From IMG/VR virus record IMGVR_UViG_3300046003_004005, positions 1 through 21,863 of that record: DNA of 21,863 nt. The stretch is one strand, 5' to 3'. This stretch comes from a virus. The translations under genes and the position numbers were made by a program. The notes below the pieces were generated by a model that was given only the letters and a program-made list of their open reading frames with translations, made no database searches and was not told the origin of the DNA. Positions within the stretch are counted from its first letter, which is position 1, and each line of letters begins with the position of its first letter. Below, piece after piece: positions 444-19,331 of this stretch.

Positions 444-472
444 ACTGTCTTAATAATAGTTGATAACCTATT

Positions 473-480
473 AATAAATA
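473..480 (-). promoter_or_regulatory. TATTTATT, variant of the gene-start octamer
   Basis: It lies 29 bases upstream of the LamG-like gene start (443), in the only gap longer than 10 bases between this gene and its upstream neighbour. It has one mismatch to TATTTATA. Confidence 0.4.
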
Positions 481-493
481 TTGAAAGAAATGA

Positions 494-1660
494 TTAAGCT
501 AGAGAGCCTGATCTCCATCTTCCGTTTAACCAAACATACATTAAAGCAGTACTTCCAACATATGCAAATTGGATTTGGCCATCAGAACCGGTTATTGTGG
601 GTGCTGTTGAAGATGTAACACCAATGATAACTGAAGATCCTGATACTTTTAAAGCATTAGAACCAAAAGTTCCCATTGTAATTGAATCATCTGATCTTAC
701 ATCTAGGATTGGAAATCCTGAAATATCATTTACTGACATTAAAGAACCTGAAAATGAATCAATTACAGAAAATAATTGACCCTGTGCTCCTTCAACATCA
801 AATAAAGCATCTGTTGGTGATGCAGAACCTGATCTAAAAATAATTAATGAACCTGTGTTTATGTTTATATTTCCAGAATTTACAATTAAAGATCCAGAAA
901 CAGTTGCTGTAGAACCTGAAACTATTAATGGTGGGTTCGAATACTGACCAAGTCTAATAGTGTTGTCAGAGAACGCTTCCATAACCGGAACGCCGGAAAT
1001 GGTGTTGACTGAGAAAAGACTACCGGACAACCCGTCTACCACTGAGAATAACTGCCCTGAGGGTCCGTACACATCAAACATATTACCATCTGTAGTAGTA
1101 CCTTGAACGGTAAGTACGTTAGTAGTACCTCCAATATTCATTGAAGAAACAGATGATGTAGTATTTACTGATACTCTACCGGTTGAACCAGTAACAAGTA
1201 AGTAAGGTGTTCCTGCAGAACCGATTGTTAATAATGATGCATCTCCAACGGCTGGAATAGTTAATGAACCAGTAATCACGGTTGAACCAGTGATTCTAGT
1301 ATTACCTACAACATCCAAAACCGCAGTAGGAGTGCCGGTCATAATACCGACTCTTGAATTTCCTACAAATAAGTTATTGGTTCCGTAAGGACCTGCTACA
1401 AAAGAAAAATCTGAGAATGCTTCTAAGACTGGTAAACCAGAAATTGTGTTTACAGAAAATAAAGAACCGGATAATCCGTCAGTTACAGTAAATAATTGCC
1501 CTGATGTTCCTAATATGTTTAATAAAGTACCACCGGCGGTTGAGCCTTGTACTGTTGTTACATCGCTTGATCCTGAGGTGTATTGAGATCCTGTTACTGA
1601 CAGTGATCCTGATACTCCTTCGGAATTATATACTCGTAAAAAGCCGTTCCTTAAATCCAT
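494..1660 (-). CDS. Repeat-containing tail fibre protein
   Basis: This 388-residue protein contains three copies of a roughly 48-residue module at about residues 46-93, 193-240 and 286-333. The module core reads GQLFSVxDxxSGSLFSVN followed by ISGxPxxE and SD. Stretches rich in TGS and SGS, probably beta-structured, separate the copies. The C-terminus (about 353-388) has a GQIQFAYVGS segment followed by YVWLNGRWRS, a common ending for marine phage fibres. It lacks a signal peptide and membrane segments, as expected for a virion protein. The ATG at 1660 lies 7 bases after a TATTTATA motif in a 19-base gap behind the previous fibre gene. The role as a virion fibre is inferred from repeats and neighbours; the receptor is unknown. 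Confidence 0.75.
   Translation of the reverse strand: MDLRNGFLRVYNSEGVSGSLSVTGSQYTSGSSDVTTVQGSTAGGTLLNILGTSGQLFTVTDGLSGSLFSVNTISGLPVLEAFSDFSFVAGPYGTNNLFVGNSRVGIMTGTPTAVLDVVGNTRITGSTVITGSLTIPAVGDASLLTIGSAGTPYLLVTGSTGRVSVNTTSSVSSMNIGGTTNVLTVQGTTTDGNMFDVYGPSGQLFSVVDGLSGSLFSVNTISGVPVMEAFSDNTIRLGQYSNPPLIVSGSTATVSGSLIVNSGNININTGSLIIFRSGSASPTDALFDVEGAQGQLFSVIDSFSGSLMSVNDISGFPILDVRSDDSITMGTFGSNALKVSGSSVIIGVTSSTAPTITGSDGQIQFAYVGSTALMYVWLNGRWRSGSLA
662..1525 (-). repeat. Three-copy 48-residue fibre module
   Basis: Copies lie at 1382-1525, 941-1084 and 662-805 within one fibre gene. They share the GQLFSV...SGSLFSVN...ISGxP pattern. The first two are nearly identical in protein but differ at many third codon positions. 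Confidence 0.8.
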
Positions 1661-1667
1661 GGTTTGT

Positions 1668-1675
1668 TATAAATA
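1668..1675 (-). promoter_or_regulatory. TATTTATA gene-start octamer
   Basis: It is an exact copy, 7 bases before the ATG at 1660, in the 19-base gap between two fibre genes. Confidence 0.5.
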
Positions 1676-1679
1676 TTCA

Positions 1680-2930
1680 TTAAACTGTTTGTGTAGTTAT
1701 GGTAGCAAACCATCTATAAGGTTCTGTAGTTGATCCTGTAACAGAAAGAAAAAATACACTTGCACTAACTCCAACGTTTATATCTGATCCTGTTGTATCT
1801 GCATTTATGTATCTAAAAGGCGTACCTACTAAAGTAGCATTTCCACCAACTCTTTTTATTGTTGTTTTTATTTCGCCGGTAATTGTATCTCTAGATCCAG
1901 TACCGTAACCCGTTACCATCGCGTTAAACATAATTGATTGCGAAGTCGCAATAGATGCTGTATAAAGGGAGGCTGTTGGTAAGATCGCGGTTAAAGTTGA
2001 TCCTGACGCCTGAAATGTTGTATAGGTTATTCCGAAATTAGAGTATGTTGTAGGACCTACAATATTTAAGGATCCTGATATTGATGTTGATCCTGTAATA
2101 GAATGTGTATCTGTAGATAGGTTACCAAGCTTGGTTCCGGTATCAAATACTTGAAATTCAATTGCAGAACCTGTAAATACTATAAAAGATCCTGAGAGTA
2201 TTGTTGGTCCGGTTGCGGTTAAAGACCCAGAAAGAGTGGTTGAACCTGTTACTAATAAAGACCCATTTATTGTTTGAGGTCCTGTAACTGCTAGTGATCC
2301 GGATAAGGTAGTTGAACCGGTAACAATTAAGTTACCGTTTGCTATGATTGGTCCTATTGTTGAAATAGAACCTGTAATTCCTAAAGAACCGGTTATTGTA
2401 TGTGTATCGGTACTTACGTTTCCTATTTTAACTCCAAGATTAGTTACTTGTAGTTCAATTGCTGATCCGGATATTACTGTAAGTGAGCCTGTTATTACTG
2501 TATTACCGTTGTTTGTAAGAAGTCCGGTTGCGGTTAAAGAGCCGGATAAGACAGTTGATCCAGTAACTGTTAAATTGCCATTTAGTGTTTGAGGACCTAC
2601 AACTGCTAAAGAACCTGTTAAAGCAGTAGACCCTGTAATTGTTGCAGTACCTATTACAGCTAATGAGCTTGAAAGTATAGTTGATCCAGTTACTGTTAAA
2701 TTACCGTTTGATATTTGCGGACCTACAATTGTTAAAGATCCTGTTACTGTACTAGAACCACTAATGACTGAAGTACCGATTACTGTTAATGAACTAGAAA
2801 GTAAAGTTGAACCGGTAACCTGTAAAGTATTAGTTCCAAAGGTTGCAACCCTTGTATTACTTACTAATACTCCTACTGACCCGCTATCAAGTTGGTTTAC
2901 GCCATATGGATTTGTTCCGGTATACTTCAT
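1680..2930 (-). CDS. Tail fibre protein with TGS/SGS repeats and a C-terminal fibre domain
   Basis: This is a 416-residue protein. Residues 37-290 are an array of short beta-type repeats of the form VTGSTxLSGSLxVxGPQ, as in the shafts of trimeric fibres. Inside the array a longer segment occurs twice: SGSAIELQVTNLGVKIGN near 154-171 and TGSAIEFQVFDTGTKLGN near 253-270, each followed by STDTH. The last roughly 110 residues look globular, with SIMFNAMVTGYGTGS, then ATLVGTP, and an ending of YRWFATITTQTV. This matches a C-terminal domain I recognise from cyanophage and other marine phage fibres. The ATG at 2930 is only 6 bases after the preceding gene, too close for the TATTTATA motif, which is absent. 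It is probably co-translated with that gene. Confidence 0.75.
   Translation of the reverse strand: MKYTGTNPYGVNQLDSGSVGVLVSNTRVATFGTNTLQVTGSTLLSSSLTVIGTSVISGSSTVTGSLTIVGPQISNGNLTVTGSTILSSSLAVIGTATITGSTALTGSLAVVGPQTLNGNLTVTGSTVLSGSLTATGLLTNNGNTVITGSLTVISGSAIELQVTNLGVKIGNVSTDTHTITGSLGITGSISTIGPIIANGNLIVTGSTTLSGSLAVTGPQTINGSLLVTGSTTLSGSLTATGPTILSGSFIVFTGSAIEFQVFDTGTKLGNLSTDTHSITGSTSISGSLNIVGPTTYSNFGITYTTFQASGSTLTAILPTASLYTASIATSQSIMFNAMVTGYGTGSRDTITGEIKTTIKRVGGNATLVGTPFRYINADTTGSDINVGVSASVFFLSVTGSTTEPYRWFATITTQTV
2061..2822 (-). repeat. TGS/SGS beta-repeat shaft
   Basis: A degenerate array of VTGSTxLSGSL units, each about 20 residues, spans residues 37-290 of the encoded fibre. It includes one longer segment that occurs twice (near 2120-2175 and 2415-2475). 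Confidence 0.7.
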
Positions 2931-2936
2931 ATTTTA

Positions 2937-3269
2937 TTAACTAATTTCAAGAACAGAAATAATAATATCAGCTGAACTTGCTACGTTTGATTTTAGTGCT
3001 AAATAGTCTGTTGCTTTCAAAACTACTTTTTGATCTCCCCCTACTAATACAACATTAGAACCAGGAGGTACTAAAGATCCAGTACAAATGTAAGCACTCT
3101 TACCTCCGGTAGTATCATTAAGTCTTACATCAACGTTTATGTTTTGATTTACTCTGTTTGCAACAGAAACTCCAATAACAGTAGTTACCGTAGCTGCGGG
3201 TGCAGTGTAGATAATTGTCTCGGTAATCCCGATTGAGGCTGAGATGCTATTTTTAAAAGTATTTGCCAT
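2937..3269 (-). CDS. Small virion structural protein, fibre-cluster type
   Basis: This 110-residue protein starts MANTFKNSISASIGITETII. It has an APAATVTTVIGVSVANR strand region, a VPPGSNVVLVGGDQKVVL segment (about 67-84) and ends in IISVLEIS. I recognise this layout from small uncharacterised structural proteins beside tail-fibre genes in T4-like marine phages. It looks like a single compact beta-sandwich, possibly a collar or adaptor between fibres; that role is inference. The gap before the ATG is 15 bases and is almost filled by a TATTTATA motif (7-base spacer). The next gene follows after 6 bases. The product is well supported as real by length, start and spacing, but its biochemical role is unknown. 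Confidence 0.7.
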   Translation of the reverse strand: MANTFKNSISASIGITETIIYTAPAATVTTVIGVSVANRVNQNINVDVRLNDTTGGKSAYICTGSLVPPGSNVVLVGGDQKVVLKATDYLALKSNVASSADIIISVLEIS

Positions 3270-3276
3270 GATTTAT

Positions 3277-3284
3277 TATAAATA
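3277..3284 (-). promoter_or_regulatory. TATTTATA gene-start octamer
   Basis: It is an exact copy, 7 bases before the ATG at 3269. It begins directly after the stop codon of the previous gene (3285-3287), so it fills half of the 15-base gap. Confidence 0.5.
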
Positions 3285-4835: not shown

Positions 4836-4844
4836 TTCTATCTA

Positions 4845-7800: not shown

Positions 7801-7868
7801 CCTGCTGGTCCTGGTGCAGTTACAACCACTACGTTTGTATTAGTATTTGTAGTTACTACATTATTCAT
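4845..7868 (-). CDS. Large tail fibre or virion structural protein with collagen-like N-terminus
   Basis: At 1007 residues this is the largest protein in the window. Residues about 19-34 form a short collagen-like Gly-X-Y run (GPAGVRGPVGPKGDTG), as in trimeric phage fibres. Residues about 120-340 hold repeated modules, including GSFIGAF/GSGANLFNIP, GSFSGSF and GDGAGLTNVPASGI, plus a repeated TGQSFTTGSLTGS unit. From about 340 to the end lies a roughly 670-residue region with few repeats. It includes DASEILRFIAGLLSASAPDA and TFASITQTYSG, a type I recall from uncharacterised marine T4-like phage structural proteins. The start overlaps the upstream gene as ATGA, implying translational coupling. 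A fibre or baseplate-attached role is inferred; any enzymatic activity in the C-terminal part is unknown. Confidence 0.77.
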   Translation of the reverse strand: MNNVVTTNTNTNVVVVTAPGPAGVRGPVGPKGDTGTISGNTGVNSTGSSVFSGSVNIIGTLSVTGSTLLSGTALLNGAPILTAATLATDRIATTGVTASVSTGNTVFTVSSASIDLFKVTNTGTSGSFIGAFSGSGANLFNIPASGITGLNLSQIASTTATASISAASGFRVNTNTEITGSLKVTAGVSGSFSGSFQGITTGQSFTTGSLTGSLTGIGSGSFSGSFQGNSNGIQTGQSFTTGSLTGSFTGISSGSFVGIGSGSFSGSFQGDGAGLTNVPASGIVGLNLSRVSTGSVTASVAPAGNLFTVSSGSNNYFTVSGSRITIGSGSLFVSQSINAYNINVGTPTSNAWQSGLNGSYFNNFTTQTDASEILRFIAGLLSASAPDASPNTKTFASITQTYSGNGTGTVTAGYVPQSSSNADILYLLSKSFTQTGSTLFPGKTLYNNSGYTISYSSVAGGSTIVSSSADAQLFGLGLLTSGGPTQVNVSGTINWFYSDNNSETSIATSQSQTLIANSTFSTTNGITLAKINTANPAVIPAAYQDGKFSTVFSNGLYNGGRTFTSVSSSGWYHLSASVAISSGSSPYSTLKTVVDRIFYAPLSNISTNVGTNTKGIGYSGYNTLTAASRSLSGAPYLNVATWTVSSSVTGLFNPLFGTSATLARQAVAGNISIANPAAGAYISSITTGLINTANTVYDSTGVTARNTATIPFLTDIIRLTGSVSLSIGTGNNIAQTGLSPTTFTIATYGTDKDGTEGSALNTLTIPYHSASTFSQPLTSGSLGYYGQAQGYDGGTLTGGSEAFTGESYRVQITNKFLSGSYAAADAWSTAYGVYNLGALDLQVKPGYLVRPGGTYGYWLTDPDNTKTYKYYARAFQRSSGTAASSVIVNVGKTLVNWQSTTSGVAVALMFKSSGPANGYSTPRIYDPSELTSNLISGSMANDNFKNPFTNNIALYGNTGGNLATTTYTVPLRGADGMILDGTLQDFIILIRYTGDQAPVSSITVSYT
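7055..7301 (-). repeat. Direct repeats in the 1007-residue fibre gene
   Basis: A perfect 35-base repeat lies at 7129-7163 and 7231-7265, 102 bases (34 codons) apart. A 28-base perfect repeat lies at 7184-7211 and 7274-7301. A less exact copy of the latter begins near 7058. They encode TGQSFTTGSLTGS and GSFSGSFQG units. Confidence 0.85.
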
Positions 7869-8260
7869 CTTGTTACTTCTTTAGATAGTTTAACTGGTCC
7901 TTGTAGTAAACGTGTTACTGTCGGGCAATCTGTACCGTTCGGTACATATATTTCTAAGTCATAAACCGCTTCATCGAAGGTTAGTGCGGAGGAGGTACAT
8001 GCTGAGATGTATACTCCGATAGATCCTGATGATGGTGGTGTATAAGGAGAAGAACCAGACATATTTAGTCCGGTTCCATCTGGTTGTAAAGAACTGCTAA
8101 GTGTTAAATAGATAGTAGTAGAAGCTAGGGAAGGTCTAATTTGCATTCTTGCTCCATAGCCGCTTAGATCCACAGGAGTTCCGGCAGAATCTTGGTATTG
8201 AAACTCAAAATCAATAGTGGTTCCTTGTTCTAATAATAAAGGGTATCTTCCAGCTGACAT
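7865..8260 (-). CDS. BppU-N-like beta-sandwich baseplate or fibre-adaptor protein
   Basis: This 131-residue protein has FEFQYQDSAGTPVDLSGYGA followed by RMQIR near residues 18-43, then YLTLSSS and an ending with YDLEIYVP and VTRLLQGPVKLSKEVTR. The pattern of a 'DSSG-PVDLTGY-A-MQIR' strand pair is seen in small beta-sandwich proteins and N-terminal domains (BppU-N type) that join receptor-binding parts to the phage baseplate. The similarity is by eye only. It sits directly upstream of the 1007-residue fibre and overlaps its start by ATGA, which supports a joint role. A TATTTATA motif precedes the ATG with a 9-base spacer, and the gap to the previous gene is 58 bases. It could instead be a chaperone-like accessory, but a structural adaptor is more likely. 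Confidence 0.6.
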   Translation of the reverse strand: MSAGRYPLLLEQGTTIDFEFQYQDSAGTPVDLSGYGARMQIRPSLASTTIYLTLSSSLQPDGTGLNMSGSSPYTPPSSGSIGVYISACTSSALTFDEAVYDLEIYVPNGTDCPTVTRLLQGPVKLSKEVTR

Positions 8261-8269
8261 CTGTTTTGT

Positions 8270-8277
8270 TATAAATA
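8270..8277 (-). promoter_or_regulatory. TATTTATA gene-start octamer
   Basis: It is an exact copy, 9 bases before the ATG at 8260 of the BppU-like adaptor gene. Confidence 0.5.
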
Positions 8278-8318
8278 TGAATAGATAACAAAAAGAAGGT
8301 ACTAGGGGGAGTTAAGGT

Positions 8319-8570
8319 TTACTGTTCGGGTATGAATTCACCTTTCTCAAGGTCAATTTGACCATTACCGTACTTATCAGAAAGTTCTTTTCCGAAAGTA
8401 ACTTCTTCTTGCTTTAAGTCTGTGAAATACTTAATGATTTCCTCTCTTCTTGCTTCAATTTGAAGCTTTGTAATCTCTAAGTTACCTAATTCTCTTGCAA
8501 CTGCAGCATTCTTTTGCTGGATGTCTTGAAGTTTTTCTACTTCCTCAACTGTTAATTTTGTGTTTTCCAT
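8319..8570 (-). CDS. Small coiled-coil protein of unknown function
   Basis: This 83-residue, strongly charged protein is predicted by eye to be mostly helical. Residues 5-65 show heptad-like spacing of Leu, Ile and Val (LTVEEVEKLQDIQQK, then ELGNLEITKLQIEARREEII), suggesting a coiled coil. The C-terminus KYGNGQIDLEKGEFIPEQ looks like a short beta tail. Similar small coiled-coil proteins of unknown role occur near structural genes in T4-like marine phages. It has no signal peptide or membrane segment. A TATTTATA motif lies 14 bases before the ATG, within a 35-base gap. It could be a virion protein, a fibre chaperone or an internal protein; the sequence does not decide. Confidence 0.6.
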   Translation of the reverse strand: MENTKLTVEEVEKLQDIQQKNAAVARELGNLEITKLQIEARREEIIKYFTDLKQEEVTFGKELSDKYGNGQIDLEKGEFIPEQ

Positions 8571-8584: not shown

Positions 8585-8592
8585 TATAAATA
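8585..8592 (-). promoter_or_regulatory. TATTTATA gene-start octamer
   Basis: It is an exact copy, 14 bases before the ATG at 8570 of the small coiled-coil gene. Confidence 0.5.
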
Positions 8593-8605: not shown

Positions 8606-10069
8606 CTAAGTTATATTGATTAGAATACCGTCGATGAAATTTAAAGTATTTGGCGGTGGGTTACTTGCAATAGTTACTGGGCCTGTAAACCCTGCTGGTT
8701 TTAAATTTGTTCCTACACCTGCAGAACCAGAGGGCATCTCTAAGTAGTATCCGTTAGCTGCACCACCTTGTTCAAATATTCTAAGTCTATTCTGGTATAC
8801 ATCTATAGTTACACCGTTTGGAATAGTTGTATTTGTAGCAGGTGCATTAAGGAATATTTCTCCTCCTTCATCACCTGATTGATACATTGATTTTAGATTA
8901 ATTTGAGCAGTTACATTACCTGCTGCTGTAATCTCAGAAGTTGATGTAATTGAACCTGTTACTATTTGGTTATCTTTAAATGTATTAGATCCTGTTGTTG
9001 CAAAAGAACTTGTTCTAGAGTTAAGTACATAGAGTGGTGCTAATGATGCTGTTAAAGCGTATGAACTACTAATAGAATTTGATGCCCAGCTTGATGTTCC
9101 AAATAAAGAACCCGTAAATGATCCTGTAAATGATCCTGTGTGAGATCCAATAAATGAACCAGAAAATGAACCTGTATTACTTAAAAATTGATCTACTCTA
9201 TTTGCTGTTAATATTAACGAGGGTGTTCTTGGATGAGTTGGTGAGGTACCCGCAGCAATTGTCTCTAATGTAATTACGTTAGCTTGTTCAACATGCCAAC
9301 ATAACTGAATGTAATCATTTGTTGATAGACTTAAATAATAATTCCAACCCGCTACAACTTGTCCATTAGACCCAGCTTTAAACGGCGGTACTCCTGCTAC
9401 TCCTGATGAATCTACTATATCTGTTCCATTTTTTCTAACCCAAATTACTACATCTTGGATACTATTATCTGAGTTTGAAAATTGAGCTGAGAATTGTACG
9501 TTATAAACACCGGCATTTGTAAATTTTATTCTGGATGTGTCTCCAGCTGATGCACTTACAAATACTCCATTTGAAATATCTGTAGTGCTTAATGACATTG
9601 AGTATATTTGAGTAGCACTTGCTGCTAAAACAGACCCTGTATCGTAAAACGATCCATAGGACCCTGTCGCTGTATTAAATCCACCTGATCCACCAGTAGA
9701 TGTAATTATGACTTGCCCTAATCCATTAGTTGGTGATAAACTAATATTTGCTCCTGCAAGTAACTGAGTGACTCCTCCGTTTGCTGCATATGATGAACTT
9801 AGGGCATAAGAAGCAGATACTGGGTTATTTGCATTCACAGTAACTATTCCTGTTCCACCAACAGGAGAAATAGTAATATTAGTACCTGCTATGATTTGAG
9901 TAACTCCACCACCTGCACCTGATCCGATATTAACAATAGTCTGTGTATTCCCCTGCTGTTTTTTGATATAAGCCTTACCGTCGAATGTATTTACGGCAAG
10001 ATCCCCTAAAGCAAGCTGGGTTATACTAGGTACGGATCCTGAAACGGATATGGTTCTTATTGATGGCAT
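8606..10069 (-). CDS. Tail fibre protein with C1q/TNF-like jelly-roll domain
   Basis: This is a 487-residue protein. The N-terminus includes LALGDLAVNTFDGKAYIKK, a fibre-attachment signature I recognise from marine phages. A 27-residue unit follows twice, GGVTQIIAGTNITISP at 54-69 and GGVTQLLAGANISLSP at 98-113. Residues about 137-290 resemble a C1q/TNF-like jelly roll, with IKFTNAGVYNVQFSAQFSN, VVIWVRKNGTDI and YIQLCWHVEQAN strands; such domains form trimers and can bind receptors. A GSFSGSF...GTSSWASN...SSYALTAS shaft region follows, then a C-terminal domain. Its ATG overlaps the phoH stop by one base (TAATG), so it is probably co-expressed with phoH, although function separates them. It opens the fibre cluster. 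Confidence 0.75.
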   Translation of the reverse strand: MPSIRTISVSGSVPSITQLALGDLAVNTFDGKAYIKKQQGNTQTIVNIGSGAGGGVTQIIAGTNITISPVGGTGIVTVNANNPVSASYALSSSYAANGGVTQLLAGANISLSPTNGLGQVIITSTGGSGGFNTATGSYGSFYDTGSVLAASATQIYSMSLSTTDISNGVFVSASAGDTSRIKFTNAGVYNVQFSAQFSNSDNSIQDVVIWVRKNGTDIVDSSGVAGVPPFKAGSNGQVVAGWNYYLSLSTNDYIQLCWHVEQANVITLETIAAGTSPTHPRTPSLILTANRVDQFLSNTGSFSGSFIGSHTGSFTGSFTGSLFGTSSWASNSISSSYALTASLAPLYVLNSRTSSFATTGSNTFKDNQIVTGSITSTSEITAAGNVTAQINLKSMYQSGDEGGEIFLNAPATNTTIPNGVTIDVYQNRLRIFEQGGAANGYYLEMPSGSAGVGTNLKPAGFTGPVTIASNPPPNTLNFIDGILINIT

Positions 10070-10758
10070 TACTCTCTATAGTCTGAAAATACTTTTAAGA
10101 CTGGTTCTACAATCTTATGACGGTGGTTTTGTTCTAAAGTTATGACTTTAATTCCAGAAACTTGTGGTTCTAACTTCAAAAAGAAATCAAAGCCGGAGTC
10201 TTTTTTGCTTCTTAAATCACATTGTGACATATCACCACAGAATAGCATCTTAGAATTTACACCTAGACGCCCTATCATTAGTTCAGTTTGTCTCATGGTG
10301 GCATTCTGGGCCTCATCAATTAAAACAAAGCAGTTAGTAAATGTATTACCTCTTAGGAATCCAAAGGGAGAAACCACGACAGACCCTTCTGCTACTAGTT
10401 TCTCGGTCTTATCCTTGCCTATAAGTTCATGCATTATGTTATAAATAGGTGCTGTGAGGTATGCAAGTTTATCATCTACTCCTCCTGGAAGGTGTCCGAT
10501 ATCCTCTCCTGCAGTTACATAAGGTCTTGCTATGATTAGTTTCTCAATATCTTTATTGAAAAGTAAATCAAGACCTGCCTGGACTGCCAGTAAGGTTTTA
10601 CCTGATCCTGCTCTTCCTTTAATTGCTATAATATCATGGTGTAGGATGTGAGCTTTAGCAAATTTCTGCTCTTCGTTTAAGGTGATTCCAAAATTAATTG
10701 GGTTCTTAGGTCTTCTTTTTTCTTTGAAAACCTCATCAGTGTGGCTGTTACTGCTCAT
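10069..10758 (-). CDS. phoH: PhoH-like P-loop ATPase
   Basis: This 229-residue PhoH-family protein has Walker A GRAGSGKT at residues 48-55, Walker B VLIDEAQ at 145-151 and a GDMSQCD motif at 175-181. It also has the typical IIARPYVTAGEDIGHLPG stretch and a C-terminal LEQNHRHKIVEPVLKVF region. PhoH proteins are cytoplasmic ATPases related to superfamily 1 helicases, and they are common in marine phages. Their role in infection is unsettled: phosphate stress and RNA metabolism have both been proposed. Here phoH lies between a homing endonuclease gene and the fibre cluster, and its stop overlaps the first fibre start. The coding-strand motif CTATTTATC lies 17 bases upstream of the ATG in a 55-base gap. 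The family call is firm. Confidence 0.95.
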   Translation of the reverse strand: MSSNSHTDEVFKEKRRPKNPINFGITLNEEQKFAKAHILHHDIIAIKGRAGSGKTLLAVQAGLDLLFNKDIEKLIIARPYVTAGEDIGHLPGGVDDKLAYLTAPIYNIMHELIGKDKTEKLVAEGSVVVSPFGFLRGNTFTNCFVLIDEAQNATMRQTELMIGRLGVNSKMLFCGDMSQCDLRSKKDSGFDFFLKLEPQVSGIKVITLEQNHRHKIVEPVLKVFSDYRE

Positions 10759-10775: not shown

Positions 10776-10783
10776 GATAAATA
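10776..10783 (-). promoter_or_regulatory. TATTTATC, variant of the gene-start octamer
   Basis: It lies 17 bases before the phoH ATG at 10758. It is a one-base variant of TATTTATA, followed by a purine-rich AAGAGAG that could be a weak ribosome binding site. Confidence 0.45.
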
Positions 10784-11389: not shown

Positions 11390-11394
11390 ATACT

Positions 11395-11402
11395 TATAAA
11401 TA
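11395..11402 (-). promoter_or_regulatory. TATTTATA gene-start octamer
   Basis: It is an exact copy, 5 bases before the ATG at 11389 of the homing endonuclease, downstream of the gp23 terminator. It supports that ATG as the true start. Confidence 0.5.
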
Positions 11403-11435
11403 TCGGTAGAAGTCGGTAAAAGTGTAACTTGTAAC

Positions 11436-11461
11436 AAAAAAAGCCTGGATTTCTCCAGGCT
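11436..11461 (-). terminator. Rho-independent terminator after the gp23 gene
   Basis: On the minus strand a perfect 7-base stem AGCCTGG/CCAGGCT closes a 6-base loop and runs directly into a T-rich tract (plus-strand A run 11436-11442). It lies 26 bases past the gp23 stop. It ends the gp22-gp23 transcription unit and separates it from the homing endonuclease. Confidence 0.88.
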
Positions 11462-11487
11462 CTTTAAGATTATTTTAATGGTTAATC

Positions 11488-13188
11488 TTACAAAGTGTTC
11501 AAGCCACTTACGTAGATTTTTCCATAAAATTCCGGTCTGACCATCTTCTTCGCGTAACGAGTCAAAAGACCTTTACGTGGTACGAAGGTTTCAGGATCAT
11601 ACACCAAAGGAGTCATGATCAATGGAATGTAAGGAGCAAATACTGCACCAGTTTCCAAGAATTGGCTACCTTTGAAGCCCATCAAGATGGTATTCTCTTT
11701 CATGTATGGGTTTTTGTAAACAGTGTATCTGTTGTTGATTTGACCCATTTTCTGTACACCGAATGCATAAGATGCAGCAGTTACATCACCGTTAGAAGTT
11801 GAAGCAAATCCTGGGATACTTTCCAAAATAGTAGCAACTGTAGGAGAAACTACGCAGAAGTTCGCACCACCACGTAAAGTTCTTTGGTGAATAATGTTAC
11901 TCAATTTTTGCATTTTAGTTCCTAAAGTTTGGAACCATTGTCCTTGAGAGTTGTAGAAACCTAAGTTTGAATCAAATCCAGTACCAGCAGCGTTGATAGC
12001 GTTGTTGTTAATAGCAGACCAATATTCAGTTCCTGCAGCAGCAGAAGAAATCAACATATCCAAGATTTCCATATCAATTTCCAAAGAAATATACTCAGAC
12101 ATTACAGCTGTCAATTCAGCTTCAGCATCCAATGAATGGTATGCATTCAAGTCTTGAGCAAATTCTGGAGTCCATTGAGATTTCAATTTCTTAGTCTTAG
12201 CTACGATAGCTTCAGATCTCATTTGAACGTTGATTTGTGGGATAACAATCTCAGAAGCAGACTCGGCATTAGGAACTGCATAAGAAGCACCAGCTTCGAA
12301 ATCTCCTCTTGCATTGTCAGCGGTTGCTTTGTTGTAATACAAGGTATAAGAACCTGTAGAAGCTAAAGTTGCACCTGAACCAGTGAAGTAGAAGGAAATA
12401 GTACCAGCACCGCTGTTCAAGGTAGTGAATTCTTGTAATAGAGTTCCTACAGTTACTGCAGAACCAACACCAGTTTCAGTTGTAGCTGAACCAGATACTA
12501 ATACAAAACCTCTAACTGCCAATGGGTCAAAGTTAGAAAGAGAAGAAGTCAATACTGTAGCTTTCAAGATACGACCAGCAACTAAAGAAGCTGAGAATTC
12601 AGAGCTAAAGTTTAAATCAGACCAAGCAGTTGCAGCAATGATTGATCCAGTTAAGGTTGCAGCAGGAGCAGCAGAAGAACCAGAAATAAGACCGAAAGCA
12701 GAAGCTGAGAAATTGTTAGTAGAGAAAGTGAAACGACCAGCTCCATATAAAGCACCTGTTGAAGTGTTACCGAAGTTAGCAGAAGTATCACCATACATTG
12801 AAGTACCTGAAGTAAAAGGGTTTTTGTTAGTTCCGTATTGGAAATCCAAGAAGAATACAAGACCTGAAGGTAAGTTCATTGGTTGAACTGAAACGAATTC
12901 TTTCGCAGCAATTTGACCAAATACTTTACGCACTAAAGGTAAAGCGATACCAGCCCACTGTTCACCTGTACCTGCGGTAAAAGATGCACCAGTTCCTGTT
13001 TGAGATTGCTCGATAACCAACTGTTTAGCTTGGTTTTCAAGAATCATAGACATATTATTTTTTTCAGTTTCGTTACTGATTCCTCCTAAAAGGCCAGTAG
13101 CGCCCCATTTTTTTGCCAATCGAGCAGCGTCCGATTGCAAAGACTGCCAGGGGTTAGCAGATTCTAGTAAGTTTTGTACGTTTGACAT
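11488..13188 (-). CDS. 23: Major capsid protein (T4 gp23-like)
   Basis: This is a 566-residue member of the T4 gp23 family, which forms the hexamers of the phage head. Landmarks shared with T4 gp23 are FVSVQPMNLPSGLVFFLDF near 98-116, an AKTKKLKSQWTPEFAQDL block followed by HSLDAEAEL, and the C-terminal MTPLVYDPETFVPRKGLLTR with YGKIYVSG. Between residues about 120 and 320 there is a Ser/Gly/Thr-rich stretch that differs most from T4. The prohead protease should remove an N-terminal segment. Sites fitting the (I/L)xE rule lie after E9 and E51, with E60 a weaker fit, but the actual site cannot be read from sequence. The gene follows gp22 after 21 bases without a TATTTATA motif, so the two are probably cotranscribed. 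Confidence 0.96.
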   Translation of the reverse strand: MSNVQNLLESANPWQSLQSDAARLAKKWGATGLLGGISNETEKNNMSMILENQAKQLVIEQSQTGTGASFTAGTGEQWAGIALPLVRKVFGQIAAKEFVSVQPMNLPSGLVFFLDFQYGTNKNPFTSGTSMYGDTSANFGNTSTGALYGAGRFTFSTNNFSASAFGLISGSSAAPAATLTGSIIAATAWSDLNFSSEFSASLVAGRILKATVLTSSLSNFDPLAVRGFVLVSGSATTETGVGSAVTVGTLLQEFTTLNSGAGTISFYFTGSGATLASTGSYTLYYNKATADNARGDFEAGASYAVPNAESASEIVIPQINVQMRSEAIVAKTKKLKSQWTPEFAQDLNAYHSLDAEAELTAVMSEYISLEIDMEILDMLISSAAAGTEYWSAINNNAINAAGTGFDSNLGFYNSQGQWFQTLGTKMQKLSNIIHQRTLRGGANFCVVSPTVATILESIPGFASTSNGDVTAASYAFGVQKMGQINNRYTVYKNPYMKENTILMGFKGSQFLETGAVFAPYIPLIMTPLVYDPETFVPRKGLLTRYAKKMVRPEFYGKIYVSGLNTL

Positions 13189-13209
13189 TTTTTCTAATGT
13201 GTTTTTGTT

Positions 13210-14517
13210 TTATTTTAAGCCTGCAAGTTTTTGGAACCTTTCAACCATTGCATTAGTTTCCACCACAGGCTGTTTGCTTGGTGTACCGCTAATTGTTTTA
13301 GATGCAAATGATTTGTTTTCTCTCACCAACTCTCTCTTGTCTGTTTTGTTCAAACCTGAAGTTAGAGTTTCGTAAACTAACTTAGTTTCTTTAACTGATT
13401 CAGCATTATCGAATGCAGTAAGTACTTGTACTTTTTGTGCTTCTGATAAGTTCTTAGCTTTAAAAATTTTGTTAGTGTAAAGTAATTTAGAATTAAGAAG
13501 GTTAATTTCATGTAATTCTGATCTTAGTGTTTTAACTGTCTCTAAAGCTTCTTCAAGTTCACCTGAGTTTTCTTGTTTAGCTTTTTCAGCAGCTTTTTTA
13601 AGCATTTCTTTTTTCTCAGCAGCAGAAGCTTTCATGAATCCAGCAGCACCAGCAACACCTAAAGCAGATAGTACTATACCTACATACTTAAGCATTTCTG
13701 CACCTTGCATACCGAAAGAAGTTACATCTTCTTTTAGACCTCCTTCTTTCATTGTACCTTTTGCTTTTTGAGCTAAAGCAGCTAATTTTGCTAATTCAGC
13801 ATCACTAGCATCTTCTAATGCATTTACTACTTCAGCGTTTCCATCAGCAGCTTCTGCCATACCTGCCTTAGCTTTTAATTTACCTAAGTAAGATTTGATA
13901 GCACCTGCAGTGAATCCACCAGCAGCAGTAGCGGCAGCAACAGCAGCACCTAAGATTCCCTGTGCAGTGTGTGCATTATCAGTTAATCCCATGTCGATGA
14001 CCATCTGGATTGCTTCGCTCACAGCGGTTTCGTTTAGTTTGTTTTCCATCATTGGTTCTTCTAGTGGAGCTTCTTCTGTGTCCATGTCCATATCCATTTC
14101 TGGAGTTTCTTCTGAGCTTGGTCCAGCTTCTAGCTCACCAGCTTCAATCATCTCGTCAACCACACTTGCAATAAATGCTTCTAAGTCTTCGGCAGTCATG
14201 TTATCGAAGTCGATCTCTTCTTCCTCTTCTGTTTCCTCTTCTCCATTAGGCATTTCCTCAGTTTCTTCTTCTGATTCATCTTCTAATTCTCTAAGTAATT
14301 CTTCAAGGTCAATTTCTTCCATAGAATCAGCATCTTCGTGTTTTGCTTCCTCCATGTAAGGATCTTCTTCTTCCATTTCTGTTAATTTCTTTTCTAACAT
14401 TGATTTTAAGTGAGGAGTAAATGCTTCCTCTAATGCAGCTTTAGCATTAGTGATAGCTACTTCCTTTACAGCTTTTGCATCAGCAATCGCTTCTTTTAAC
14501 AATTCTCTGTTTGTCAT
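13210..14517 (-). CDS. 22: Prohead core scaffolding protein (T4 gp22-like), with extra hydrophobic domain
   Basis: This 435-residue protein is considerably longer than T4 gp22 (about 270). Residues 45-160 are extremely acidic, with runs of Glu and Asp, as in gp22 cores. The C-terminal part (about 315-435) is helical, with LRSELHEINLLNSKLLYTNK and an end of VERFQKLAGLK, the recognisable gp22 signature. Between them lies an Ala/Gly-rich region with two hydrophobic stretches, about 187-206 (GILGAAVAAATAAGGFTAG) and 275-296 (MLKYVGIVLSALGVAGAAG). The scaffold directs capsid assembly and is degraded by gp21. Position between gp21 and gp23 matches T4. The ATG is preceded by TTAGGAAAAA, a weak Shine-Dalgarno. 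The assignment is firm; the insert's role is unknown. Confidence 0.87.
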   Translation of the reverse strand: MTNRELLKEAIADAKAVKEVAITNAKAALEEAFTPHLKSMLEKKLTEMEEEDPYMEEAKHEDADSMEEIDLEELLRELEDESEEETEEMPNGEEETEEEEEIDFDNMTAEDLEAFIASVVDEMIEAGELEAGPSSEETPEMDMDMDTEEAPLEEPMMENKLNETAVSEAIQMVIDMGLTDNAHTAQGILGAAVAAATAAGGFTAGAIKSYLGKLKAKAGMAEAADGNAEVVNALEDASDAELAKLAALAQKAKGTMKEGGLKEDVTSFGMQGAEMLKYVGIVLSALGVAGAAGFMKASAAEKKEMLKKAAEKAKQENSGELEEALETVKTLRSELHEINLLNSKLLYTNKIFKAKNLSEAQKVQVLTAFDNAESVKETKLVYETLTSGLNKTDKRELVRENKSFASKTISGTPSKQPVVETNAMVERFQKLAGLK

Positions 14518-14592
14518 TTTTTCCTAATAATAATTTTTTTTTGGAAGTACGCTTATTTAAAATAGCGTAATAAGTGTTGTGTAAAAATTGGG

Positions 14593-14614
14593 GTACCGTA
14601 TTCAGAACCGGTAC
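14593..14614. other. Hairpin in the gp21-gp22 gap
   Basis: GTACCG (14593-14598) and CGGTAC (14609-14614) form a perfect 6-base stem around a 10-base loop. No T tract follows on the minus strand, so it is not a classical terminator. It would lie in the leader of the gp22-gp23 transcript if the motif at 14622-14629 is a promoter. A second weak inverted repeat, ACGCT/AGCGT, lies a few dozen bases further on. Confidence 0.4.
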
Positions 14615-14621
14615 ATATAAT

Positions 14622-14629
14622 CATAAATA
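14622..14629 (-). promoter_or_regulatory. TATTTATG, variant of the gene-start octamer
   Basis: It lies just after the gp21 terminator and 104 bases before the gp22 ATG. It is a one-base variant of TATTTATA. If active as a promoter, it would serve the gp22-gp23 unit with the longest leader in the window. Confidence 0.42.
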
Positions 14630-14642
14630 GAGCTATTTTCTT

Positions 14643-14676
14643 AAAAAAAAGAAACCCTCTGGTTTTAATAGAGGGT
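14643..14676 (-). terminator. Rho-independent terminator after the gp21 gene
   Basis: On the minus strand ACCCTCT (14676-14670) pairs with AGAGGGT (14660-14654) around a 9-base loop, followed by a T-rich run (plus-strand A tract 14643-14653). It lies 28 bases past the gp21 stop and separates the portal-protease genes from the scaffold-capsid unit. Confidence 0.87.
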
Positions 14677-14704
14677 CAATCAAAGGATTCTATCCTATAA
14701 GGGG

Positions 14705-15307: not shown

Positions 15308-15309
15308 TA

Positions 15310-16302
15310 TTAATACCCTCTTTGTTTCAATACACTCTTCATTGCTTCTTGCCAAACAGGAGCTGTACCCACAGCTTCATCAATGATCTCTTCACCGCCT
15401 GCTGCTTTTGGTCTTACAGTATCGCCAGAAATTCTTTTTGCTGCTTTAGCTTTTTGAGCTTCATACATTTTTTTTCTTTTTTCTAAAAGAGCAATATCTT
15501 TTTTGATTTCACTAATTGCTTTTTTATCAACTACATCCTTCATATCGTCACTTTCGGTCATAGTTAATCTATTTTTTAATTCTTCGATTTTCTCTTGAAT
15601 TTTACTAGCCTTATATTCGTATGCAGCAACTTCACCTAGTTTTTCAATTTCTTTTAGGTGCTTTTCAATTGCTCTCTTTTTAGCTTCTGAAAGTGTTTCT
15701 TTATTTGTCATGTTGTCTTTTGCTTCGTTTAATTTAACAGGTTCCATTCCTGAAGATTTATACTTACCTGTCACTTCTTTAGTTTTACCTAAACCAGGAG
15801 CATCCTCAGTATATCCGATGCCTTTAATGCCAAATGCTCCATCTTTAATGTAGTATAATGGATCTTTTTCAAGGTTCTTAAATACGATCTTCTTAAGTTC
15901 GTCTTCTGTTTTATCTGCATTTTTAGGATCTTTCATCTCAACATAATACCCTGATAAGAGTTCATTGGTAGAGATGTTATTATTATTCTTTTTATCTTCG
16001 TAATCGTATCCAGTGGTTTCTTTCTCTACTACCGACTTATCCGTATCTTTTAAAGCAGCTTTAACTGCTTCTGTATTTTCACTAAAGATTTTGAACCAGT
16101 TTGGTTCTCCTTCTTTTTGAATTAATACTCCGGTCATGCTTTCTGATATAATTCCTCTTTCAGTAAGGTTGTGTATTGATTGATCAAATGTAAGTGCGCC
16201 TGTCACTACATTAGGGAATAGGGTTCTAGCTTCCTTTATAAAAAGTTCTCTGTTACCTTTACCTTCTTTAATTAAATTATATTTGTCTTGTAGGCTTTTC
16301 AT
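15310..16302 (-). CDS. Charged, helical protein of unknown function, likely prohead core or virion
   Basis: This is a 330-residue protein with many Lys and Glu. The N-terminus (1-60) includes GKGNRELFIKEARTLFPN and LTERGIISES, a pattern I recall from uncharacterised proteins beside gp21 in marine T4-like phages. Residues about 200-285 form a probable long coiled coil (AIEKHLKEIEKLGEVAAYEY, then IQEKIEELKNRL and ISEIKKDIALLEKRKKMY). The C-terminus ends AMKSVLKQRGY. Several (I/L)xE triplets that gp21 could cleave are present, such as LNE and LSE near residues 190-210, but such triplets are common by chance. Its position in the gp20-gp21 interval, where T4 keeps core genes 67 and 68, suggests a prohead core component. 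A TATTTATA motif lies 4 bases before the ATG. Confidence 0.65.
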   Translation of the reverse strand: MKSLQDKYNLIKEGKGNRELFIKEARTLFPNVVTGALTFDQSIHNLTERGIISESMTGVLIQKEGEPNWFKIFSENTEAVKAALKDTDKSVVEKETTGYDYEDKKNNNNISTNELLSGYYVEMKDPKNADKTEDELKKIVFKNLEKDPLYYIKDGAFGIKGIGYTEDAPGLGKTKEVTGKYKSSGMEPVKLNEAKDNMTNKETLSEAKKRAIEKHLKEIEKLGEVAAYEYKASKIQEKIEELKNRLTMTESDDMKDVVDKKAISEIKKDIALLEKRKKMYEAQKAKAAKRISGDTVRPKAAGGEEIIDEAVGTAPVWQEAMKSVLKQRGY

Positions 16303-16306
16303 ATGT

Positions 16307-16314
16307 TATAAATA
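16307..16314 (-). promoter_or_regulatory. TATTTATA gene-start octamer
   Basis: It is an exact copy, only 4 bases before the ATG at 16302, in a 20-base gap between the 73-residue and 330-residue protein genes. Confidence 0.5.
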
Positions 16315-16322
16315 GGGGTTGT

Positions 16323-16544
16323 TTATTTCCAAAGATCTTTATACACCATGCCTTTTGCTGCCTTACGGGTCTTAGCTTTATCTACAAGCTTCCATCCCAT
16401 CTTTAGGTAGTAGTTTCGGGAAGTACCTTTTGCATTTTTGTTTGGATTAAAAGCATAAGGAGTGTTATAAGCACCTGCTGCACCGGAGGTTGATTCCTCT
16501 TCTAGCAATTCTCTAAGTTGGTGCTTAAATTGATTCCGGGTCAT
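16323..16544 (-). CDS. Small basic protein of unknown function
   Basis: This 73-residue protein begins with a short helix (QFKHQLRELLEEE). A Gly/Ala/Asn-rich middle (GAAGAYNTPYAFNPNKNAKG) and a basic C-terminal part (YYLKMGWKLVDKAKTRKAAK) follow. Its length is close to that of T4 gp67 (80 residues), and it lies in the equivalent interval. However, gp67 is acidic while this C-terminus is basic, so homology is not claimed. The start is 2 bases past the preceding gene, which implies translational coupling; GGT and ATGACC surround the start. It is real judging from spacing and from resemblance to short conserved proteins in marine T4-like phages. The function is unknown, possibly a head component. 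Confidence 0.6.
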   Translation of the reverse strand: MTRNQFKHQLRELLEEESTSGAAGAYNTPYAFNPNKNAKGTSRNYYLKMGWKLVDKAKTRKAAKGMVYKDLWK

Positions 16545-16546
16545 GG

Positions 16547-17380
16547 TTATAGTTCATTTACCAATTCATAATACTGTAGTAAATCAATGATAGAGTCATT
16601 AGATACTTTCTCAGTTTTAGTTATTGGTTTAATATATTTTAAGACTTCTACAAGTTTGATTTGCATTACTTTGTCTGATGTCCTTTTAATTTTTGTTTTT
16701 AAAGTATCTCGTACTTCTGTAATTTTTGTATTATAATACTCTTTTAATTTGTCTGTATTATCAATCGAATTTATAACCTCTCTCAGGACTTCCTTCTGCT
16801 GGGTGCTTAAGTGATCGTACTTATCGTTAAATTTATCTAAAAGTAATCTATAGGTTAAGACTCTTAAGTCTTTACTATACCCTCTATATTCTTCTAGTAA
16901 CGTATCAACTGGTGCTATAACTGGTAACTTAGTTAAATGCTCAAGGATTGTAATTTTATTACTGATTGTTATTTCTGGTGTTACTTTTTCTGATGTTTGA
17001 TTTTCAATCAAGTTATTTAATGCTGCAAAAATCTTATAATTAGTTACTTGAACTCTGAAGAATTTTTCAACACTGTAATTATCGCGAATTTCTTTTACTA
17101 GATTGTACTTTTGCTTTCTGATTTCAGATCTTTTTAACTTAGAAGAGGTTTCAACTAGTGTGTTAATTACCATCTCAGCTTTAGATTCTGTAAGGTTCTT
17201 ATAGGCAGTTAATTGCTCATATAATTTATACTCTTTTCCTAGTTCTGTGTTAACAAAGTACTTTTTAAGAATATTGATAGCAACAGAATTTTTACCTTCT
17301 AACGTATCAGAGGTGATCTGTCTTACTAGAAGTTCAAAAAGAAGTCCTGTATTTCTAAATTTCGAGTGCTTGATTTGCAT
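16547..17380 (-). CDS. Conserved phage protein of unknown function in the gp20-gp21 interval
   Basis: This is a 277-residue, helix-rich protein. It opens MQIKHSKFRNTGLLFELLVR, followed by QITSDTLEG, a signature I recognise from uncharacterised proteins between the portal and protease genes of T4-like marine phages. The ATG at 17380 is preferred over the in-frame TTG at 17383. No enzymatic motif, signal peptide or membrane segment was seen. A run of hydrophobic heptads at about 190-240 could form a coiled coil. Its place fits a head-assembly role, perhaps replacing T4 core gene 68, but nothing in the sequence proves that. A TATTTATA motif lies 15 bases before the ATG, in a 34-base gap after the portal gene. 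Confidence 0.68.
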   Translation of the reverse strand: MQIKHSKFRNTGLLFELLVRQITSDTLEGKNSVAINILKKYFVNTELGKEYKLYEQLTAYKNLTESKAEMVINTLVETSSKLKRSEIRKQKYNLVKEIRDNYSVEKFFRVQVTNYKIFAALNNLIENQTSEKVTPEITISNKITILEHLTKLPVIAPVDTLLEEYRGYSKDLRVLTYRLLLDKFNDKYDHLSTQQKEVLREVINSIDNTDKLKEYYNTKITEVRDTLKTKIKRTSDKVMQIKLVEVLKYIKPITKTEKVSNDSIIDLLQYYELVNEL

Positions 17381-17395
17381 CAATGTATAATTTTT

Positions 17396-17403
17396 TATAA
17401 ATA
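17396..17403 (-). promoter_or_regulatory. TATTTATA gene-start octamer
   Basis: It is an exact copy, 15 bases before the ATG at 17380 of the 277-residue protein gene. Confidence 0.5.
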
Positions 17404-17414
17404 TGTGTTAAATG

Positions 17415-19304
17415 TTATTCCCTAATTTGATTTTCGTCTAGTAAACTGTTTGCTTTTCTTTCTGATTCAAAGATCATCTTTTTCTTAGAAGGAATTTCCT
17501 CTAATACTTTTGTATATTTTGAGAATTGTCTCTTAGTTGCTTCCATTGCATACGGTGAAGTTTTATCTCTACCGTATCCTTCTTGATCATCTACTTTGTT
17601 AGCTTGTCTACCTAGTCTATCCATTCCTAAAGGATCTTCAGTACCGTTAATGAACGAGGCTTTCTCTTGAGGACGGCCCATTTCTGGTTCATCTTCGTTG
17701 TATCCATCAGGTACGCTACCTGGTCTTGTGTAGACTCTTCCTTTTCCATATGCTGTTGCGATATCGTGAGGAGTTCCATAAGTCTCTCCAGATTCTAAAG
17801 GATCGTTTCCTTCGTTTTCAATTTGAGATAATCTAAATTTACGTTTAGCATCTTCTCTGATGAGGTCTCTCATTTCCTCGTATTGGTCTTGACTTAAGTG
17901 GAAGATATTATCATAAATCCAGTCAGTGGAAATCAATTGTGAATCTACCATTTGAGCTGCAAGATCCATTTTCTCCTTCAATAACGCTACTCTTTCCTGA
18001 TCATAGATGATTGAAGGAGTGGTTAATGATAATTCAAAGTTAGTTAATTCCTCGTCTCTGTATCCCTGGATGTATAAATGCACAAATGCTATTTTATATA
18101 ACTCAGAAACCATGATTCTTTGTATTTTTTCTACAGTTCTACCAAAGCGAATATCTTCTGCAGCTAATGTAGCCTTACCTTGTAGTTTTTCATCGTACCC
18201 AAGAAATGCTTTAGGTACTCTTAATGCTGCAAATAACTTGTCTCTTAAGTAATTTACGTCTGTTATACCATCATACTGTAGTCCACCCAAGGTTTCAATC
18301 TTAGTTGAAGTATCATTTCCCCTCATAGGGATATAAAAATCCTCCATAAGGTTCTGCATGTTATATTTTAAGTTATATTCACCTGTTTGTTGATCTATGT
18401 AAGGAGTTCTCTTCATTTTAGAGATTGCTTTTTGCATAAATCCTTCAACTTCATTAGGTGGAATACCTCCAACGTTCATATAAAAAATTCTCTTCTCAGG
18501 AGCTCTTACAATTCTATGAACTAACATTGCATCTTCCATTAAAGTATACTGCTTAAATAATTTTCTAGCAGGTTCTATATAAGAACGACCATAGGGTAGG
18601 AAGTTTACATCTGTTAATAAACGGAAATGTGCTACTTCGTAGTTGTCGAAGTAAATAGATTTGGCATCGTGCTGATTAGGAGTTTTAAAGTATCCATAAG
18701 TATCAGCGGCCAACCCGTCAGGGTCATAACGGAATCTAACAGCAGTTGGATTTTCTGTATCATAGTGTTCTTGTCTTTCTATATTAAATGCAGCGAATGG
18801 AATTACGTTATAAACACCGTATTTCTCTGAAGCTTCTAGTTTCAAAAAGAAATCACCGTATTTACACATATTTCTAATCCACCAACTCAAATTAAATTCG
18901 ATATTTAATACATCATAGTATAGATTATATAGTATCTTCTGTATATTCTCGTCGTTTGACCTGATGTGAAGTACTTCTCCCATATCATTCTTAAGAGTTG
19001 ATTCTTCTGATAAGATATCTAGGGCTGAAGCAATGATTGCATCGGTGTCCATAGCGTCATATTCAGAATATAACTGGGTTCTTAAGGTTTGATAGTTAAA
19101 AGAAGATTGATAACCGTATAAGGAAGTAGGTGAAGTTGTGTAAATTCTATTATATCTTGCTACTAAAGAGTTATTCTCTAGTTCTCCAGACATTTGAATT
19201 TGATTTGTATCGGCAACTTTTAGTTGATCACCTCCAACATTCCTTATTATTACGTCTGTTGAGAATAATCTACGTAGTCTCGAAAATACACTAGTGTCTG
19301 CCAT
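17415..19304 (-). CDS. 20: Portal vertex protein (T4 gp20-like)
   Basis: This is a 629-residue gp20-family portal protein. It forms the dodecameric ring at one head vertex that nucleates assembly, docks the terminase and later joins the tail. Landmarks are YDAMDTDAIIASALDILSE (82-100), WWIRNMCKYGDFFLKL (141-156), the MEDAMLVHRIVRAPEKRIF block (256-274) that T4 gp20 shares as RAPERRIFYIDVG, EDFYIPMRG (321-329) and LFAALRVPKAFLGY (357-370). Compared with T4 gp20 (524 residues) it is about 100 longer, mainly through a polar, Gly/Pro-rich tail from about residue 500 with few hydrophobic residues. It follows gp17 after 28 bases. The TATTTATA motif is 19 bases before the ATG. Confidence 0.96.
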   Translation of the reverse strand: MADTSVFSRLRRLFSTDVIIRNVGGDQLKVADTNQIQMSGELENNSLVARYNRIYTTSPTSLYGYQSSFNYQTLRTQLYSEYDAMDTDAIIASALDILSEESTLKNDMGEVLHIRSNDENIQKILYNLYYDVLNIEFNLSWWIRNMCKYGDFFLKLEASEKYGVYNVIPFAAFNIERQEHYDTENPTAVRFRYDPDGLAADTYGYFKTPNQHDAKSIYFDNYEVAHFRLLTDVNFLPYGRSYIEPARKLFKQYTLMEDAMLVHRIVRAPEKRIFYMNVGGIPPNEVEGFMQKAISKMKRTPYIDQQTGEYNLKYNMQNLMEDFYIPMRGNDTSTKIETLGGLQYDGITDVNYLRDKLFAALRVPKAFLGYDEKLQGKATLAAEDIRFGRTVEKIQRIMVSELYKIAFVHLYIQGYRDEELTNFELSLTTPSIIYDQERVALLKEKMDLAAQMVDSQLISTDWIYDNIFHLSQDQYEEMRDLIREDAKRKFRLSQIENEGNDPLESGETYGTPHDIATAYGKGRVYTRPGSVPDGYNEDEPEMGRPQEKASFINGTEDPLGMDRLGRQANKVDDQEGYGRDKTSPYAMEATKRQFSKYTKVLEEIPSKKKMIFESERKANSLLDENQIRE

Positions 19305-19323
19305 TGTTAGTAATCAATATAAG

Positions 19324-19331
19324 TATAAATA
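19324..19331 (-). promoter_or_regulatory. TATTTATA gene-start octamer
   Basis: It is an exact copy, 19 bases before the portal gene ATG at 19304. It begins 1 base after the gp17 stop codon. Confidence 0.5.

Follow-up and report, generated by a model that had tools for sequence, protein, structure and literature searches.

The late promoters of phage T4 consist of a single element of 8 base pairs (bp), without a -35 element and with an AT-rich segment downstream (PMC2988020). For the Far-T4 phages, the description published in 2015 found no detectable T4 transcription-regulation core genes and remarked that their transcription might differ from that of T4 (PMC4360716). We analyzed an octamer, TATTTATA, which stands ahead of genes in the IMG/VR virus record IMGVR_UViG_3300046003_004005, a DNA of 21.9 kb (21,863 nucleotides (nt)), the whole of which is called the window below, and in its relatives. 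Our conclusion, to which we give a probability of about 0.8, is that TATTTATA serves as the -10-like element of late promoters in a widespread, little-studied Far-T4-like lineage mainly infecting Bacteroidota, and that it is read by a gp55-type sigma factor of the phage. This reading is drawn from the observations that the octamer precedes virion genes, sits at the head of operons, is often found after a terminator and lacks a -35 element. Comparison of the sequences indicates that it is very probably a group-wide variant of the T4 late promoter kind, for which there is a strong sigma candidate; the first-pass annotation of the window, which had suggested a promoter-like -10 element of this kind, is supported in this respect. 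No prior report of the octamer or of Far-T4 late promoters was found in the literature searched, subscription papers being outside its scope.

Distribution and orientation of the octamer

The window carries about 20 co-directional genes, all on the minus strand, which include a PhoH-like gene, gp23, gp21, the portal and the terminase. A near-identity DNA search of the window in phage records gave no match. Among the isolates in the matches listed, Flavobacterium phage immuto is the nearest (55% identity in gp23), the next is Microcystis phage Mel-JY01, and Rhodothermus phage RM378 is more distant than both. The genes g23, g20, g17 and phoH are of Far-T4 type, and PhoH lies near a long gp23 of 566 amino acids (aa). 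From gene content and isolate matches, we assign the window to the phages published under the name Far-T4 (PMC4360716, PMC7198788).

Eight exact intergenic copies of TATTTATA and three one-base variants lie in the gaps of the window, every one on the coding (minus) strand; the list given by the first-pass annotation proved exact. The octamer or a variant is present in every gap of at least 15 nt except the 21-nt gap between gp22 and gp23, and in none of the gaps of 9 nt or less nor at gene overlaps, again as first described. In upstream gaps, TATTTATA occurs in 8 of 13, when 0.15 are expected from a dinucleotide model, and over both strands of the whole window there are 11 exact copies for 2.8 expected, a number which none of 100 shuffles reached. 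Copies with one mismatch show no excess across the whole window (68 seen, 65 expected); this total is uninformative, and hence the three variants count only through their location in gaps.

The same bias was then looked for in 159 viral contig loci, kept among the matches listed for the capsid and the terminase of the window (at most 600 each). Within the 40 nt ahead of genes, TATTTATA reaches a density of 114 per 10 kb, whereas sense coding sequence has 0.73 per 10 kb, about 150 times less, and the equal density inside genes which the first-pass annotation had named as fatal to its claim is not what one sees. When every 8-mer in upstream gaps is ranked without any prior motif, TATTTATA comes out as the top one in the window, and it is strongly enriched in five near-complete relatives (immuto, G001, G002, G007 and G008); the motif discovery at start regions of the window and its relatives thus recovers the element without bias. 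At junctions between genes, the octamer is in the gap of 398 of the 641 junctions with a gap of 15-99 nt, and of none of the 650 junctions with an overlap or a gap of 0-7 nt.

The first-pass annotation had called the octamer an inverted T4 element. The inversion is not needed, because TATAAATA is almost its own reverse complement and a register in the same orientation already matches 6 of the 8 bases, TAT(AA)ATA becoming TAT(TT)ATA. The T4 consensus itself is not what stands on the coding strand, as TATAAATA is far rarer there than TATTTATA upstream of genes. The plus strand of the window does read TATAAATA, the exact T4 consensus, and one could then suppose that the octamers are inverted T4 late elements driving antisense late transcription. 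However, spacing and orientation follow the start of the downstream sense gene at hundreds of sites, a constant spacing to a sense ATG would not be expected of an antisense promoter, and in T4 itself most coding-strand TATAAATA sites lie 24-28 nt upstream of the ATG. We regard antisense promoters as scarcely credible.

Distance to the start codon and promoter classes

We counted distances from the octamer to predicted start codons on dereplicated sites and by gene families. The main mode is at 13-19 nt and there is a sharp peak at 4 nt: from 3 to 9 nt the numbers of gene families are 5, 16, 6, 5, 5, 4 and 5, while from 10 to 17 nt they range between 11 and 18. The sigmaA box of Flavobacterium lies at -12 to -5 (PMC9723704), and with this geometry an octamer ending 4 nt before the ATG would give an exactly leaderless mRNA; in other words, the spike is what a start site 5 nt beyond the octamer would yield for leaderless mRNAs. 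This peak supports the leaderless or nearly leaderless mRNAs suggested by the first-pass annotation. We propose that a diverged gp55-type phage sigma factor with a region 2, encoded elsewhere in the genome, would bring the host RNA polymerase to the octamer, no -35 element being needed, and RNA would start about 5 nt downstream of the octamer. An octamer ending 4 nt before the ATG would then produce a leaderless mRNA, and the usual arrangement at 13-19 nt would produce A-rich leaders of 9-15 nt, suited to a host without Shine-Dalgarno use.

Being near start codons, the octamer might instead act on the mRNA, as an A/U-rich signal for translation initiation. Bacteroidota are hosts without Shine-Dalgarno use (PMC6847099), and in the Bacteroidota-type genomes GGAG or GAGG is found at no more than 1 of 28 octamer genes per genome. 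But the 650 tight or overlapping junctions, which also need translation, are devoid of the octamer, the early genes of the same phages mostly lack it and use a different motif, and the spacing has two peaks rather than one value. Furthermore, in Mel-JY01, whose host is a cyanobacterium, TATTTATA is kept and lies mostly 27-42 nt from the ATG, GGAG or GAGG standing before the start in 6 of 13 such genes. At this distance Shine-Dalgarno sites can be accommodated, and this speaks against a signal for translation; that the octamer is kept while its distance tracks the translation system is as expected for a promoter. The octamer is also often placed after terminators, and its variant at gp22 is about 100 nt upstream of the gene, ahead of two hairpins. 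A translation signal is in our opinion very improbable.

We profiled 247 diverse sites. The core of the octamer is tightly conserved, with an A directly before and an A directly after it. There is no -35 element, the Kullback-Leibler divergence being at most 0.17 bits at every position from -45 to -10; one can notice a T-rich stretch upstream at -9 to -3 and an AT-rich segment downstream, with AAA at +11 to +13. An intrinsic terminator lies directly upstream in 16 of 58 octamer gaps and in 38 of 335 other gaps (p=0.003). A site for RNA processing, where long late transcripts would be cut just upstream of genes, would likewise yield short leaders and be restricted to gaps. It fits poorly with the many octamers right after intrinsic terminators, where little upstream RNA is expected, with an AT-rich element in a context, T-rich upstream and AT-rich downstream, like that of T4 late promoters, and with the co-occurrence of a phage sigma candidate; we consider it very improbable as well.

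The octamer is associated with virion genes. In immuto it is present in 17 of 34 virion-gene gaps and in 8 of 77 others (p=1e-5), and the metagenomic relatives G001, G002, G007 and G008 have the same bias (p=9e-6 to 0.02). In Mel-JY01 the bias is not significant, with gene classes assigned by blastp; its portal, tail tube and adjoining genes do carry the octamer. A second upstream motif combines TAnnTTTAGG with a GTTGC some 20 nt before it and is similar to the host sigmaA promoter. With early and late classes assigned from gene content and not from timing, TAnnTTTAG is ahead of 19 of 31 small early-region genes of immuto and of 4 of 80 others (p=6e-10). At 60-76 kb of the immuto record (L169) and at 83-97 kb of G001, small genes that are probably early lie in clusters, and each of these genes has ahead of it GTTGC...TAnnTTTAGGTATcaataatt, a promoter of sigmaA-like type followed by an extended conserved stretch. 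A third upstream motif, TTCGTATATTA, is commonest in G002 (L303-L310), occurs in G001 and immuto too, and may represent a class of middle promoters.

These classes bear on the supposition that the octamer is a promoter element read not by a phage sigma factor, but by the host sigmaA, or an alternative host sigma factor, in either case helped by a phage activator. TATTTATA resembles the sigmaA box TAnnTTTG at TA, T5 and T7, and the start distance that we infer equals that of sigmaA (PMC9723704). It differs from this box at positions 6 and 8, and the signal of the TTG-type -33 box is absent, so that the Bacteroidota sigmaA type is not what is found at the octamer; genuine sigmaA-like promoters (GTTGC and TAnnTTTAGG) head the early genes, whereas the octamer does without that -33 element. 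Besides, the group as a whole shares a conserved phage protein bearing sigma region 2, and the octamer persists in a phage whose host, a cyanobacterium, is of another phylum. Recognition by a host sigma factor therefore seems unlikely to us.

A candidate late sigma factor

The gp55 homologue which the first-pass annotation had thought of looking for has a strong candidate in the relatives. A weak gp55 match in immuto pointed to gene 152, annotated as "hypothetical protein"; the candidate is an unannotated protein of about 240 aa, whose family has at least 600 matches in viral contigs and an invariant core NIIHTFKF...F...GAKA.SYF.TI.KR. When 47 members were scanned singly, 37 matched Sigma70_r2 (PF04542, best 2.7e-5) and 35 matched the gp55 family phrog_234 (best 1.6e-4), while no other Pfam family was matched by more than 4. 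Scans of this many members were decisive, those of a single member in PHROG and Pfam being marginal. Likewise, a single-sequence phmmer search of T4 gp55 against the open reading frames of immuto gave nothing significant, and a family profile was needed.

The candidate is found in all five metagenomic relatives over 150 kb that were tested, as well as in immuto and Mel-JY01 (E 5e-50). Among them is G001 (E 5e-79), whose capsid is 78% identical to that of the window; the window, a fragment, does not contain the gene. RM378 has a weak match (E 1e-4). When viral contigs were scanned with the Mel-JY01 sigma, no relatives of it were found, and sequence searches of the PDB with the sigma profile found no match. 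In T4, Y97 of gp55 stacks on A-12 (PMC7892883). In one weak alignment, Y97 and F86 of gp55 face an invariant Tyr and an invariant Phe of the candidate, while H95 and T99, which lie near -9 and -8, are substituted, at a place where the bases -9/-10 are different. We consider the region-2 protein of about 240 aa to be a strong candidate for the reader of the octamer, a pairing which we infer from co-occurrence and from analogy with T4.

The family has some peculiar members. In G003 (L271, 1495-2370, minus strand), about 60 extra aa interrupt region 2 of the candidate in frame, immediately ahead of the AKAYSYF segment, and in L378 (3001-3717) the homologous stretch is broken by an in-frame stop. 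Two sigma-like genes are present in RM378, one annotated as a sigma factor and the other the weak gp55-like homologue (L266, 1222-2016; L174, 43330-43929). A conserved protein of about 112 aa is encoded directly 3' of the sigma gene (L270, 2270-2605; L176, 2202-2540; immuto gene 153), and in G001 and immuto its gene is headed by the octamer.

Several results weigh against late promoters read by a gp55-type sigma factor. The first member of the family is below the Pfam gathering score for Sigma70_r2 (21.2 against 24 bits), and the profile-profile alignment of the family with gp55 (hhalign) is collinear but weak, with E between 0.014 and 0.02 and a low probability. The AlphaFold2 models of the candidate have a predicted TM-score of 0.42-0.48, and no single Foldseek match to these predicted folds is significant: the first search gave noise, apart from some sigma factors among the top matches, and with the second model most of the top matches were bacterial sigma factors, each with E of at least 0.1. 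The gp45 sliding clamp (phrog_223) was not detected in 8 genomes, and no homologue of gp33 was identified in the relatives, no direct comparison of the 112-aa neighbour with gp33 having been made. As to the octamer, some non-virion genes bear it (8 in immuto), the major capsid gene lacks an exact copy, a variant being placed ahead of gp22, and the broader comparison of spacings (3-5 nt against 6-9 nt) only reaches p=0.02 at the level of gene families, with predicted starts.

A diverged clamp or a clamp of the host may take the place of gp45. A gp44-like clamp loader is strong in G002, G003 and Mel-JY01, and none is convincing in immuto, G001, G007, G008 and RM378; independence from a clamp is a possibility. 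We suggest, tentatively and as something that may well not hold, that the Far-T4 phages of Bacteroidota would combine gp55-type late transcription without a phage clamp and distinct late mRNAs that are exactly leaderless, +1 being the A of AUG.

Sites of the window and known systems

Apart from one antisense copy within gp21, the sites that follow are all on the minus strand. Exact copies of TATTTATA are at 1668-1675 (7 nt before the ATG of gene 494-1660), 3277-3284 (7 nt, gene 2937-3269), 8270-8277 (9 nt, gene 7865-8260), 8585-8592 (14 nt, gene 8319-8570), 17396-17403 (15 nt before the ATG at 17380, gene 16547-17380) and 19324-19331 (19 nt, portal (gp20) gene 17415-19304). The copy at 11395-11402 is 3' of an intrinsic terminator and 5 nt before the ATG (11389) of a GIY-YIG homing endonuclease gene. 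The copy at 16307-16314 is 4 nt before the ATG of gene 15310-16302, whose mRNA is predicted to be leaderless; many orthologues of this gene retain a spacing of 4-5 nt. The variant TATTTATT (473-480) stands 29 nt ahead of a gene whose start is at 443, and TATTTATC (10776-10783) is 17 nt before the ATG of the PhoH-like gene (10069-10758). Three exact copies are within genes, at 10440 (sense, phoH), 14773 (antisense, gp21) and 21645 (sense). The one in phoH (10440-10447, minus strand) is retained in the relatives L009, L011, L012 and L013, where an ATG in frame follows after 5 nt. Its codons belong to P-I-Y-N, and we judged that it is probably a coding coincidence or constraint and not a functional site.

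The third variant, TATTTATG (14622-14629), is the predicted late promoter of the gp22-gp23 operon; relatives preserve its location, which is between a terminator and two 5' hairpins. The gene of the major capsid protein gp23 (11488-13188) has no octamer of its own and is co-directional with a predicted gp22-type scaffold gene (13210-14517), which has no family match and is so named from its position between gp21 and gp23. Hairpin 1 (14594-14613, TACCG...CGGTA) covaries in relatives, each of its six pairs showing compensatory changes; hairpin 2 (14548-14569, TACGCT...AGCGTA) is nearly invariant, with one compensatory change. The two-hairpin leader is conserved in the window (14548-14613) and in L011, L012, L090, L095, L101, L164, L170, L288 and L313; the hairpins of the window have no Rfam match. 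In most relatives compared, the order is a terminator, TATTTAT with a variable eighth base, about 10 nt, the two hairpins and gp22; in L016 and L018 the heptamer TATTTAT is absent ahead of gp22. This arrangement suggests that gp23 would be expressed from a promoter upstream of gp22, which would resolve the apparent exception among the gaps of the window.

We propose, for a large group of aquatic phages, a strong candidate for the missing late sigma factor and a matching late promoter. The octamer allows late genes to be recognized in thousands of unannotated contigs, and the contrast in spacing between Bacteroidota-type phages and the phage of a cyanobacterium suggests that late promoters adapt to the Shine-Dalgarno use of the host.

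The closest known system is the T4 late promoter (TATAAATA, -13 to -6; gp55, gp33 and gp45). Like it, the octamer is an AT-only, -10-like element of 8 bp without conservation at -35, is AT-rich just downstream and stands ahead of virion genes; its candidate reader with a region 2 belongs to the same phage superfamily, and in register the octamer retains A-12 and A-8 of T4. Unlike it, the octamer has TT for the central AA and is 13-19 or 4 nt from the ATG instead of mostly 24-28 nt, in relatives without a detected gp45 or an identified gp33 and under the promoter rules of Bacteroidota. The cyanophage late promoter NATAAATA (S-PM2, Syn9) and the Aeh1 variant (a/gC at -13/-12) show that the T4 late consensus drifts among relatives (PMC2984593, PMC2988020), but that drift is at the 5' end of the octamer, whereas TATTTATA differs at two central bases. 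With the Bacteroidota sigmaA promoter (-33 TTG-type; -7 TAnnTTTG, -12 to -5), the octamer shares the TA start, T at 5 and 7, short leaders and the lack of Shine-Dalgarno sites; the differences are those already given at positions 6 and 8 and at -33, and the phages reserve the sigmaA-like type for early genes. Finally, RM378, although a far more distant phage, has a motif TTATTTAAA, its top upstream 8-mers being TTATTTAA and TATTTAAA, repeatedly 6 nt (after TATTTAA) from the ATG, with A instead of T at position 7, and it also encodes the weak match to the sigma candidate mentioned above. Together, TATAAATA in T4 and cyanophages, TATTTATA in the Far-T4 group and TATTTAAA in RM378 would form a natural series for a change in the specificity of sigma region 2.

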